Made by a program: the position numbers and the translations under genes
Source of the DNA: Holdemanella sp.
GTDB taxonomy: Bacteria; Bacillota_I; Bacilli_A; Erysipelotrichales; Erysipelotrichaceae
Reading direction: 5' to 3'
Length of the DNA: 11,785 nucleotides
Assembly (NCBI GenBank): GCA_021442845.1
Contig: JABUSD010000399.1
Span: forward strand, 1 to 11,785
Shown: positions 8,539-11,722 of the stretch, piece after piece
How positions within the stretch are numbered: position 1 is the first letter of the stretch
How the letters are laid out: each line of letters starts with the position of its first letter
Notes under the pieces: model-generated
Seen by the model: only the letters and a program-made list of their open reading frames with translations
Database searches by the model: none
Told to the model about the DNA's origin: nothing

Positions 8539-10365
8539 TTATTCCTCCTTTATTATTAATAAACGCATAGCGTTTAAAATGACAACCAATATGCTGGCTT
8601 CATGGATTAACATGCCGATAGCCATATGGACATATCCTGCTAGTAATCCTATTAACAATATCAGAACGGTACCTACCGCAATAAAAATGTTCTGATACAT
8701 AATCTGAATGGTTTTCCTTGCATATTGAAATGCTTTTACAAGGCTTGTCAGATTGGACTTTATTAATACGACATCGCTGCATTCAATGGCTACATCCGTT
8801 CCTGAACCTATCGCGATTCCTGTATTGGCAATAGTAAGGGCTGGACTATCGTTGATGCCATCACCAACAAAGGTAACTATATGACCTTCGCTCTGGTATT
8901 TTTTTATGATATCGAGTTTGTCAGAAGGAAGTAATTCGCTATAATACTTTGAAATTCCTATCTGATTAGCAACACATTCTGCACTTTCCTTATTATCTCC
9001 TGTCAGCATCACAATATTTTTAATACCTAACTGTTTTAGTTTTGTGATGGTTTCTATTGCATCCGCTTTAATTGTATCCGATATAGAAATTAGATTTGTG
9101 ATGGTTGCATCGATGCAGACCAGTACAATAGTAGAGCCATAGTTTTGTTCTGATTGTAAATCATTCAATACTTCCGCCTGGAATTCAATATTCATTTTAT
9201 CCATGAGTCGCTTATTTCCAACAAGTACTTCATGGTTATTGATGCTTGCTTTTATACCATATCCTCTAAGTGTTTCATGAGATTTGACATCATATAGGGA
9301 TTCTGAATCAATATATTCTAAAATCGCCTTGGAAATAGGATGGCTGGAAATCTGTTCTGCACTGGCAGCTAATAATAGGCCATCCTTATGTGCATATGTA
9401 TATACTTTGTTTACTCGTGGCCTACCATATGTTAAAGTGCCTGTCTTATCAAACATGAAGGTATCAGCTTTCGCAAATGTATTGACACTGTCTCCACCTT
9501 TTAAAAGGATTCCATCTTTTGCTCCTCTTCCGATTCCGGCAACATTAGCAATAGGCGCCCCAATCACAAGGGCACCAGGACAGGCGAGTACTAGAACTGT
9601 GATAGCTGTATCCAGATTTCTTGTGAGGATATAGACAGATAGTGCCATAACAACAACCGCAGGGGTGTAATACTTGGCAAATGTATCGATAAATCGCTCA
9701 ACCGGAGATTTGGCATCCTGGGCTTCTTCGACTAGTTCTATTATCTTGGCAAAAGTGGTATCTTCACCTACTTTTTCTGCTTTCATCTGGAAGGCTCCAT
9801 TTTCTAAAAATGTCCCTGCATAGACTTTAGAACCGATAATCTTGTGGGATAATTTGGATTCTCCCGTTATGCTGGCTTCATTGACATATCCTTCATTTTT
9901 AATGACAATGCCATCAACAGGAATCTGATTCCCTGTTTTTACAAGCAGAATATCATCTACTTCCACTTCATCTACATCAATTTCTTCGATATCATCCTCT
10001 ATGATGCGATAAGCAGTTGTTGGAGCCATATCACATAAGGCTTTAATGGCACTTCGTGTCTTCTTTGCGGTCTTTGTTTCCAGATACGATCCAAACTGGA
10101 ATAGGAACGTAACAATGGCCGCTTCGCTATATTCACCGATGATGCAGGCGCCAATGACAGCTAAACTGACAAGGGTTTCTATACCGATTGTCTTAAAACG
10201 AAGGCTTTGATAGGCTCTATAAAAAATCGGAATTCCTGAAAATGGCAATGCGATTAAATAGAGTAGGGAATTTTCTAAAAGAATCGCAAGAAGAATGATA
10301 ATTCCAGATATCCACATTCCTGTATTAGCATATCGATTGATAAATTTTGTAACTTTTATATTCAT
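8539..10365 (-). CDS. Heavy-metal P1B-type ATPase with CPG and HEAS motifs
   Basis: Membrane metal exporter of 608 residues with no N-terminal HMA domain. Helices lie at about 15-52, 59-96, 233-276 and 560-603. Catalytic motifs are all present: TGES (167-170), phosphorylated DKTGT (306-310, Asp306), SHP (341-343), TGDN (455-458) and GDGINDSPA (501-509). In the metal-site helix the usual CPC/SPC is CPG (262-264, ACPGALVIGAP). The last helix has HEAS (588-591) followed by ILVVILNAMRLL, resembling the HEGGT element of P1B-4 (Co/Fe/Zn-type) pumps, not the MSxS of copper pumps. The cargo is therefore likelier Fe2+, Zn2+, Co2+ or Mn2+ than Cu+; this is inference. First gene of a four-gene operon. 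No Shine-Dalgarno precedes the ATG, and a -10 hexamer lies only 6 nt upstream, suggesting a leaderless transcript. Its final Lys-Glu-Glu codons (AAGGAGGAA) double as the ribosome site of the HMA gene. Confidence 0.94.
   Translation of the reverse strand: MNIKVTKFINRYANTGMWISGIIILLAILLENSLLYLIALPFSGIPIFYRAYQSLRFKTIGIETLVSLAVIGACIIGEYSEAAIVTFLFQFGSYLETKTAKKTRSAIKALCDMAPTTAYRIIEDDIEEIDVDEVEVDDILLVKTGNQIPVDGIVIKNEGYVNEASITGESKLSHKIIGSKVYAGTFLENGAFQMKAEKVGEDTTFAKIIELVEEAQDAKSPVERFIDTFAKYYTPAVVVMALSVYILTRNLDTAITVLVLACPGALVIGAPIANVAGIGRGAKDGILLKGGDSVNTFAKADTFMFDKTGTLTYGRPRVNKVYTYAHKDGLLLAASAEQISSHPISKAILEYIDSESLYDVKSHETLRGYGIKASINNHEVLVGNKRLMDKMNIEFQAEVLNDLQSEQNYGSTIVLVCIDATITNLISISDTIKADAIETITKLKQLGIKNIVMLTGDNKESAECVANQIGISKYYSELLPSDKLDIIKKYQSEGHIVTFVGDGINDSPALTIANTGIAIGSGTDVAIECSDVVLIKSNLTSLVKAFQYARKTIQIMYQNIFIAVGTVLILLIGLLAGYVHMAIGMLIHEASILVVILNAMRLLIIKEE
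8542..8550 (-). promoter_or_regulatory. Shine-Dalgarno of the HMA gene embedded in ATPase codons
   Basis: The last three sense codons of the ATPase gene, AAG GAG GAA, form the ribosome binding site of the HMA gene, whose ATG (8535) follows the TAA stop after three bases. This arrangement ties translation of the chaperone to that of the pump. Confidence 0.8.
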
Positions 10366-10371
10366 ACTATT

Positions 10372-10377
10372 AGTATA
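10372..10377 (-). promoter_or_regulatory. -10 element of the metal-ATPase operon, probably leaderless
   Basis: TATACT on the minus strand, separated from the ATPase ATG by AATAGT. If the A of the ATG (10365) is +1, the hexamer occupies -12 to -7, the canonical position. A perfect FNR box is centred at -41.5 on the same scale, and no -35 hexamer is needed in that promoter class. An alternative TATAAC (10383-10388, preceded by TGT) would place the box at about -30, which suits repression better than activation. Confidence 0.6.
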
Positions 10378-10399
10378 CTAAAGTTATAACAAATATAAA

Positions 10400-10413
10400 T
10401 TGATTATAATCAA
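10400..10413. promoter_or_regulatory. Perfect FNR-type box (TTGATTATAATCAA)
   Basis: A 14-bp fully symmetric TTGAT-N4-ATCAA, matching the E. coli FNR consensus at all ten specified bases. It lies between the divergent ATPase operon and sugar-binding-protein gene and is centred 41.5 bp from the ATPase start codon. The regulator gene at the end of the operon encodes a recognition helix with the FNR E-x-x-S-R residues, so it is the natural candidate to bind here. Confidence 0.75.
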
Positions 10414-10479: not shown

Positions 10480-10495
10480 TGTGATATAAATCACT
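10480..10495. promoter_or_regulatory. CRP-like inverted repeat (TGTGA-N6-TCACT)
   Basis: TGTGATATAAATCACT matches the CRP consensus TGTGA-N6-TCACA at nine of ten positions. It is centred about 72 bp upstream of the predicted start of the sugar-binding-protein transcript. It differs from the FNR box, so a second Crp/Fnr-family protein, not the one encoded here, would be expected to read it. Confidence 0.4.
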
Positions 10496-10524: not shown

Positions 10525-10553
10525 TTGCAAGCGCTTTCAGACGGGTTTATAAT
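10525..10553 (+). promoter_or_regulatory. Promoter of the sugar-binding-protein gene
   Basis: TTGCAA (10525-10530), a 17-bp spacer and a perfect TATAAT (10548-10553), with the start near 10560. The leader is about 32 nt and contains AAGGAGG (10575-10581), 10 nt before the ATG. A cre-like operator overlaps the -35 and spacer. Confidence 0.7.
10526..10539. promoter_or_regulatory. cre-like operator (CcpA/LacI family)
   Basis: TGCAAGCGCTTTCA agrees with the cre consensus TGWAANCGNTNWCA at every specified position but one (C at the third base). It has the central CG-containing core typical of LacI-family operators. Lying on the -35 and spacer, it should repress when occupied, as in carbon catabolite control or by a local LacI-type sugar regulator. 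Confidence 0.65.
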
Positions 10554-10591: not shown

Positions 10592-11722
10592 ATGAAAAAA
10601 TTAATTTCTGGAGTCCTTGCTGCTAGTATGGCATTATCTCTAGCTGCATGTGGTGGCTCTAAAACAAGTGGTGGGTCTTCTGGTAGCGACAAAAAGACAA
10701 TTTATGTAATGGGACCTACTCCTGATCACGGGTGGACAGCACAGGCTGGTTCTTATGCAGAAAAACGTGTTAAGGAAATCGAAGCAGAAGGTGTTTACAA
10801 AGCACAGTATATGCCTGCATCTTCTGGTGAAGAACAGGTTGACCAGGTTAAGACTATCGTAGCAAACGGTGATGCTGCTGGTGTTGTTATGATGGCATTA
10901 GATGACACTGCTCAATCAGGACAAGAACAATTGAATGCAGAAAACATTCCATTTATCTCATTCGACCGTATCATTGAAGCAACTGAACAATATGCAATTC
11001 TTAACTACTCTGGTGACAACTGGGCAGTTGGTGCTGGTATTGCTTACTGGTGCTTAAAGAATGGTATGCAGCCAGGTGATACAGTTGTAACTCTTTGGGG
11101 AGATAACGGAACTGTATGTACACGTCGTCAACAAGGATTTGAAGAATATTTATTAGGTAAACGTGAATATTTCGACAAAGACAAGAATGAAACTTATAAG
11201 ATTGAAACTCCATGGACTGAAGATCAAGTTAAACAGACTACTTCTAAATACTCTACAGTAGTAGATCCTAACTGGTCAGCTGACGGTGCTTATACTTATT
11301 TGGAAGCTCAGATTGATGCAATCGTTAACGATGCAACAGGAACTGGACGTTTATTTGTATTCTCACAAGATGATGAAATGACATTTGGTTTAATGAACCT
11401 ATTAGAAGGAAACTCTGTTTCTGAAGATACTAAGGCTAAATTAGAATCATTAAATGTTTATGTATCTGCAATCGGTGGTATGGCTGAATTATATGCTGTA
11501 ATCGACGGATCAAGCTCTCAGGCTGCAATCGCTCAGAAATATTTCGATGGATTAATTTCAATGAACTTCAACCCTAATATGATGATTAACGCTGTTAACT
11601 TCATGCTTCAATACTTAGATGGAAAAGATTGGCCATACAAGAAGGGTGAAGGAACTTATTCTGAAACTTGGATCGTTGACAAAGACAACGTAGCTAACTA
11701 CGAAGGATTCGCTGGTCACTAA
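10592..11722 (+). CDS. Sugar ABC transporter substrate-binding lipoprotein
   Basis: A 376-residue extracellular solute-binding lipoprotein of the type 1 periplasmic-binding-protein fold (PF13407-like, the ribose/galactose/xylose group). The N terminus is a lipoprotein signal peptide: MKK, a hydrophobic stretch to residue 18, and lipobox LAAC with the lipidated Cys20. A Gly/Ser-rich linker (21-33) leads into the first strand KTIYVMGPTPDHGWTAQAG. Later family-type phrases are VKTIVANGDAAGVVMMALDD and FISFDRI in the first lobe, and FVFSQDDEMTFGLMNLLEG in the second. It captures a sugar for import by an ATPase and permease that would be encoded beyond the right edge. Ligand cannot be named; aromatic and acidic residues fit a monosaccharide. 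Codon choice looks highly optimised (many GGT, GAA, AAC, GTT), consistent with strong expression. The cre-like site indicates catabolite control. Confidence 0.9.
   Translation: MKKLISGVLAASMALSLAACGGSKTSGGSSGSDKKTIYVMGPTPDHGWTAQAGSYAEKRVKEIEAEGVYKAQYMPASSGEEQVDQVKTIVANGDAAGVVMMALDDTAQSGQEQLNAENIPFISFDRIIEATEQYAILNYSGDNWAVGAGIAYWCLKNGMQPGDTVVTLWGDNGTVCTRRQQGFEEYLLGKREYFDKDKNETYKIETPWTEDQVKQTTSKYSTVVDPNWSADGAYTYLEAQIDAIVNDATGTGRLFVFSQDDEMTFGLMNLLEGNSVSEDTKAKLESLNVYVSAIGGMAELYAVIDGSSSQAAIAQKYFDGLISMNFNPNMMINAVNFMLQYLDGKDWPYKKGEGTYSETWIVDKDNVANYEGFAGH

Follow-up and report, generated by a model that had tools for sequence, protein, structure and literature searches.

Organization of the metal-ATPase operon

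The window analysed here, a stretch of 11,785 nt from a Holdemanella sp. genome, carries a run of four genes on one strand, encoding in this order a P1B-type heavy-metal ATPase, an HMA-domain metallochaperone, a RIC-like protein and a Crp/Fnr-family regulator (Table 1). The ATPase has a CPG motif, which was present in all 51 aligned sequences (the window and 50 relatives); the usual forms of this P1B motif are CPC, CPH or SPC. HE-x-S in the last membrane segment was found in 50 of the 51. Among the papers listed by a literature search for a CPG ATPase subfamily, none mentions CPG. The RIC-like protein covers positions 164-201 alone of the 216-position RIC profile, and its start is the same as in the protein of the sister species G004. 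Gene order varies in relatives, with the RIC-like, the HMA or the ATPase gene in first place.

Table 1. Coordinates of the promoter elements and genes of the operon within the window
Feature	Position	Strand	Remarks
FNR/Flp-type box TTGATTATAATCAA	10400..10413	-	perfect 14-bp palindrome TTGAT-N4-ATCAA, 0 mismatches
Spacer, box to -10	10378..10399	-	22 nt; length conserved in relatives
-10 element TATACT	10372..10377	-	6 bases to ATG; same hexamer in relatives
Predicted +1 = A of ATPase ATG, leader 0 nt	10365	-	from geometry and genus gene class
P1B-type heavy-metal ATPase, 608 aa	8539..10365	-	CPG motif; first gene of operon
HMA-domain metallochaperone, 68 aa	8329..8535	-	strong Shine-Dalgarno AAAGGAGG
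RIC-like protein, 81 aa	8073..8318	-	strong Shine-Dalgarno TAAGGAGG; matches C-terminal part of RIC iron-sulfur repair family
Crp/Fnr-family regulator, 227 aa	7393..8076	-	helix ETLSR; Cys 4, 6, 12, 109

The first-pass annotation had assigned strong ribosome sites to the genes downstream of the ATPase. This holds for HMA and the RIC-like gene, two of the three, but not for the regulator gene, whose start overlaps the preceding stop (ATGA) with AAGGA alone ahead of it. Note that on the far side of the promoter a divergent gene for a sugar-binding protein (10592-11722) is preceded by a second palindrome, GTGATATAAATCAC (10481-10494). The same gene is also preceded by TTGCAAGCGCTTTCA (10525-10539), which we take to be cre-like. 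Input from CcpA, and perhaps from another Crp/Fnr protein, is possible at this gene. No RNA families were found in the window.

Promoter elements upstream of the ATPase gene

The box is the sole zero-mismatch TTGAT-N4-ATCAA site in the window. Sites with up to 2 mismatches numbered 15 (chance mean 18.5) and are thus not above chance, so that the weight rests on the perfect match of the box and on its place. When the A at 10365 is taken as +1, the box centre (10406.5) lies at -41.5, the position at which the activator site is centred according to the class II rule. Upstream of the ATPase ATG (AACTTTAGTATACTAATAGT) a Shine-Dalgarno sequence is absent, and the ATPase frame has a stop at 10380-10378 with zero start codons between this stop and the ATG. 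The first-pass annotation had proposed a perfect box, the TATACT, a distance of 41.5 bp and the lack of a Shine-Dalgarno, and the sequence confirms all four.

The candidate -35 element, TTTATA, is weak, the -35/-10 pair reaching 9 of 12 matches. Other -10-like words near the box are TAGTAT, at a spacer of 19, and TATAAC at 10388-10383. A palindrome around the -10 element (TAGTATACTA in direct reading) is not kept at the corresponding promoter of G004 (locus L052). The arrangement found, with the site at -41.5 and a fixed distance to the -10, is that of a class II Crp/Fnr promoter, provided that +1 lies where we predict it. The ATPase also looks like a leaderless gene, since its -10 ends some 6 nt ahead of the ATG and a Shine-Dalgarno is lacking.

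Spacing between box and -10 element in relatives

To place the promoter among its relatives, the ATPase was taken from 35 of 315 genomes of the order, 30 of which were used as loci (window included), and from 26 of 395 genomes of the class, with 5 rows repeating order loci. With the window left out, every TTGAY-N4-RTCAA box at the remaining 50 loci was examined, giving 128 box orientations; each box was read in both directions, and thus many of these cannot be promoters. A TANNNT followed the box at a spacing of exactly 22 nt in 55 of the 128 orientations, whereas the 39 other spacings (5 to 44) averaged 5.6 and did not exceed 13. Hexamers with at least 5/6 match to TATAAT numbered 38 at 22 nt (mean 1.6 and maximum 5 at the other spacings). 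TATACT itself occupies the matching place in L066, L067, L068, L069 and L071. In 7 of the 50 relatives (L052, L054, L079, L080, L145, L146 and L156) no TANNNT stood 21-23 nt behind a box. Since the window shares the conserved 22-nt spacing, its box and -10 form one conserved class II-type promoter unit.

We also compiled a separate list of 57 box promoters, for which spacers of 21-23 alone were searched, so that the 55/128 count is the unbiased one; the list includes L055, with a wrong start, and box 327 of L143, which is probably not a promoter. At 13 of the 51 ATPase loci (L053, L056, L059, L061, L063, L064, L067-L069 and L147-L150) a further short gene downstream of the ATPase is preceded by a separate box-N21..23-TANNNT promoter. 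These short genes begin like HMA proteins (e.g. MKxATIQLETLT) in 12 of the 13 cases, L056 being the exception. As judged from these sites, several promoters make up the putative regulon in relatives.

Leader length in relatives and in the window

Eleven relatives have the ATPase as first gene behind a box and -10 (L056, L058, L063, L066, L067, L068, L069, L071, L154, L155 and L159). Each has a Shine-Dalgarno that matches over 4 to 8 bases, in a count that preferred Shine-Dalgarno-preceded starts where there was a choice. The distance from -10 to ATG is 21-31 nt, corresponding to a leader of 15-25 nt, and the box centre lies 56.5-66.5 from the ATG. In the window the distance from -10 to ATG is 6 nt, unique among the 57 listed box promoters (the 0 of L055 reflects its wrong start). 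Conservation of the box spacing, which the first-pass annotation had put forward as a test, therefore has a divided outcome: the 22 nt to the -10 are conserved, the 41.5 bp to the ATG are not. The message very probably begins at the pump start codon, and there is good support for a leaderless start. As in relatives this promoter is followed by a leader that carries a Shine-Dalgarno, loss of the leader in the genus of the window is most likely, and its absence is probably the derived state.

Occurrence of the box in the genome and the order

The genome of the window (G000; 2.2 Mb in 430 contigs, 90.4% complete, 4.99% contamination) contains 8 zero-mismatch boxes, with 2 for the reversed-pattern control. 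The remaining 7 all lie within stop-free frames of 116-733 codons, and none of them (0/7) is followed by a TANNNT after 22 nt; at L008 a TATTAT stands at 21 nt within a 397-codon stop-free frame. Two places in the genome match box-N22-TANNNT (control 1), namely the window promoter and a site within a 229-codon stop-free frame. We considered a wider FNR regulon in G000, but as no TANNNT stands at 22 nt behind the other perfect boxes, the box looks local to the metal-pump operon, counting perfect boxes.

Across 315 genomes of the order, the full pattern box-N22-TANNNT-N6-ATG gave 18 matches (control 2), of which only that in the window is not embedded in a long stop-free frame and also has a long gene beginning at its ATG. 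A match in G201 was set aside because a 12-codon frame alone follows the box, as was one in G233, where the box lies within a 237-codon stop-free frame. Judged by pattern and context, the window is the single convincing case in these 315 genomes.

Leaderless-type genes in the genus

Stretches were sampled from three genomes of the genus (G000, G004 and G001, the last after the signal had already been seen in the other two) and from two leadered relatives (G190 and G036). Genes were called with a simple ORF caller (at least 120 aa), so that the following leaderless-type counts are approximate: among ATG starts lacking a Shine-Dalgarno, a -10-like hexamer ended exactly 6 nt ahead in 13/63 genes of G000, 8/36 of G004 and 20/53 of G001, the background per position being 0.65, 0.31 and 0.75, respectively. 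The same geometry was seen in 1/32 genes each of G190 and G036. Overall, 41 of 152 genes in the genus compare with 2 of 64 in the two relatives (Fisher p = 2e-5). Note that the 41 include the window ATPase and its G004 orthologue. Among genes with a Shine-Dalgarno of at least 5 bases, -10-N6-ATG was found in 0 of 1,059 over the five samples (304, 153, 202, 202 and 198), and hence in 0 of 659 in the three samples of the genus. Two sets were excluded, namely genes with a 4-base Shine-Dalgarno match (93, 49, 60, 64 and 63) and ORFs in which no ATG could serve as start (4, 1, 3, 9 and 6).

The class amounts to about 5% of the 811 scored genes of the genus. Leaderless-type genes thus form a regular class in this genus and look markedly commoner than in G190 and G036, and a lineage-level change in initiation mode is possibly behind this frequency. 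Together with the conserved 22-nt spacing, the regular -10-N6-ATG arrangement supports the earlier proposal of a class II-type site at -41.5 joined to a leaderless start.

The sister species and the origin of the probable leader loss

G004 shares the ATPase, HMA and RIC-like genes with the window, its ATPase being 61% identical. At L052 this ATPase again has TATACT-N6-ATG without Shine-Dalgarno, and the starts of the two proteins differ by at most one residue. The box has decayed to a single TTGAC half. The G004 operon (L081, 4010-5544) ends after the RIC-like gene, with a LacI-type regulator gene where the Crp/Fnr gene would be, and a search of G004 for the Crp/Fnr regulator gave no match at E <= 1e-30. 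With the box decayed and the regulator gene absent there, just one promoter in the genus has both box and leaderless start, a point against the mode of expression proposed below. A search of the genus with the regulator at E <= 1e-40 matched the window's own genome alone, among 5, and a scan of genome contigs yielded 5 loci, all of them lacking HMA and RIC-like matches.

L051, L052, L053 and L054 group together in the ATPase tree (support 100/99), their order within the group being unsure (96/54). L054 lacks both the box and TATACT-N6-ATG and L053 is truncated at the end of its contig, so that the origin of the leader loss rests on few rows. The simplest story, drawn from two informative rows, would be that the leader was lost in the common ancestor of the window and G004 and that the regulator was then lost in G004.

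Identity of the regulator

The first-pass annotation had named FNR as the regulator. The protein scored 36.6 bits against the NCBIfam FNR model (NF008365; cut-off 228) and 74.3 bits against the CRP model (cut-off 266), below both cut-offs. By its sequence features it is best described as a Crp/Fnr protein of the Flp kind rather than FNR proper. Flp-kind regulators combine an FNR-type recognition helix, for which the pattern is E..SR, with two conserved cysteines, and the window protein has the helix ETLSR together with Cys12 and Cys109. Among the 120 matches listed of 166, the helix reads ETLSR in 117 and ETISR in 1, with no motif match in 2. Among the matches listed, Cys12 is present in 50/52 close and 63/68 distant homologues and Cys109 in 52/52 and 68/68. 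FNR proper has an N-terminal C-x2-C-x5-C (E. coli spacing) and one Cys in the sensor domain. This spacing occurs in 37/52 close and 0/68 distant homologues (again among matches listed), the window protein having C-x-C-x5-C; the extra N-terminal cysteines mark the close homologue group. Iron-sulfur, thiol and metal sensing by the regulator are all possible on these features, candidate signals being O2, NO, a metal or thiol redox. A homologue labelled Erysipelotrichaceae showed 57% identity, and the regulators P0002-P0005 showed 65-68%.

Relatives of the order with both the ATPase and a regulator match (E <= 1e-30) had the box in 17 of 17 cases. It was still present in 8 of the 12 without such a match, where a more distant regulator is possible. 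Box and regulator thus go together in part only.

Proposed mode of expression and alternatives

Starting from the observed geometry, its conservation and the gene class of the genus, we consider it very likely that the operon has a regulator-activated class II promoter with TATACT as -10 and a leaderless ATPase start (leader 0-2 nt). The 51 bp spanning box and start codon would be the promoter of the operon ATPase-HMA-RIC-like-regulator. The operon's own Flp-kind regulator would bind the box and, as its position at -41.5 suggests, activate RNA polymerase from there. With +1 on the A of the ATPase ATG, the operon mRNA would be leaderless; ribosomes would start the ATPase on the 5'-terminal AUG, and HMA and the RIC-like gene via their Shine-Dalgarno sites. 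As the first-pass annotation proposed, pump synthesis may then be tied to translational as well as to redox state. The leader would have been lost in the genus from a promoter that in relatives has both leader and Shine-Dalgarno.

We regard it as unlikely that the box is instead a repressor or dual site, at which the bound regulator would keep the promoter shut and be released by a metal or oxidant. Such a role would agree with the box covering the -35 region, and autorepression would suit a metal-pump operon that encodes its own regulator last. Repressor sites, however, need no fixed spacing to the -10, and the exact 22-nt spacing in dozens of promoters fits class II activation, as does the weak -35 TTTATA.

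The AT-rich region holds several -10-like words, and a transcript from the hexamer TATAAC would start near 10376 with an 11-nt leader. We judge this highly improbable: TATAAC lies merely 11 nt behind the box and is not a TANNNT, and the resulting leader would lack a Shine-Dalgarno. Moreover, the 11-nt spacing gave 0 hits of at least 5/6 and 7 TANNNT among the 128 orientations, against 38 and 55 at 22 nt. Translation from the next in-frame ATG (codon 17), on an mRNA with a 48-nt leader, has hardly any likelihood. Although this Met recurs in L052 and L054 and has GGA directly ahead of it, the GGA is too near the ATG to serve, the sister species has a similar stretch ahead of the same Met (15 residues versus 16), and the leadered relatives start with a Shine-Dalgarno at the place matching the upstream ATG.

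Relation to known systems and implications

The proposed class II promoter with leaderless start resembles the class II FNR promoters of E. coli, which have the -41.5 site, the TTGAT-N4-ATCAA palindrome and a weak -35. It differs from these in its leaderless start and in a regulator that falls below the FNR cut-off and has C-x-C-x5-C. In Lactococcus lactis, flpA and flpB are reportedly distal in their operons, with TTGAT-N4-ATCAA near -41.5; compared with these operons, the first gene of the operon studied here would have no leader. A further likeness is the Flp-kind regulator, FlpA being named among the metal-homeostasis regulons of lactic acid bacteria (PMC3616900).

The view that a leaderless gene would be unusual in Bacillota was not supported. 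The leaderless share of mapped mRNAs is 8.6% for Streptococcus pyogenes and 9% for both S. agalactiae and S. pneumoniae (PMC6431027), and leaderless genes were predicted in 56 of 209 Firmicutes genomes, on average 4.2% (PMC3160421). A TANNNT some 12 bp ahead of the ATG is given as a sign of a leaderless gene (PMC3160421). The window shares this arrangement with leaderless genes in streptococci and Lactococcus (PMC6431027, PMC3160421) and adds to it an activator box of class II type. It is the combination of the two that is less common, by which activator site, -10 and start codon would stand in one fixed register. No leaderless FNR or Flp promoter in Bacillota was found among the literature matches listed, going by title and start of abstract.

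A bolder scenario, possible but doubtful, is that a broad shift of the genus (probably Erysipelotrichales) to leaderless genes caught a Flp-controlled pump operon and deleted leader and Shine-Dalgarno up to +1. With the pump made via a 5'-terminal AUG and its chaperone and RIC-like partner via Shine-Dalgarno sites, the ratio of pump to partners would then vary with initiation-factor balance or stress.

In conclusion, the finding is real and its main reading probably right, with a leader loss that looks derived and fits a genus-wide habit. It is a modest variant of known parts, a known promoter type minus leader and ribosome-binding site. Its value lies in a natural before-and-after pair, an activator-type promoter to which relatives attach a leader and Shine-Dalgarno but which in one genus has neither, and hence in a clean system for the effect of leaderless translation on an inducible stress operon. 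It also points to a Bacillota genus in which leaderless-type genes look markedly commoner than in two relatives.
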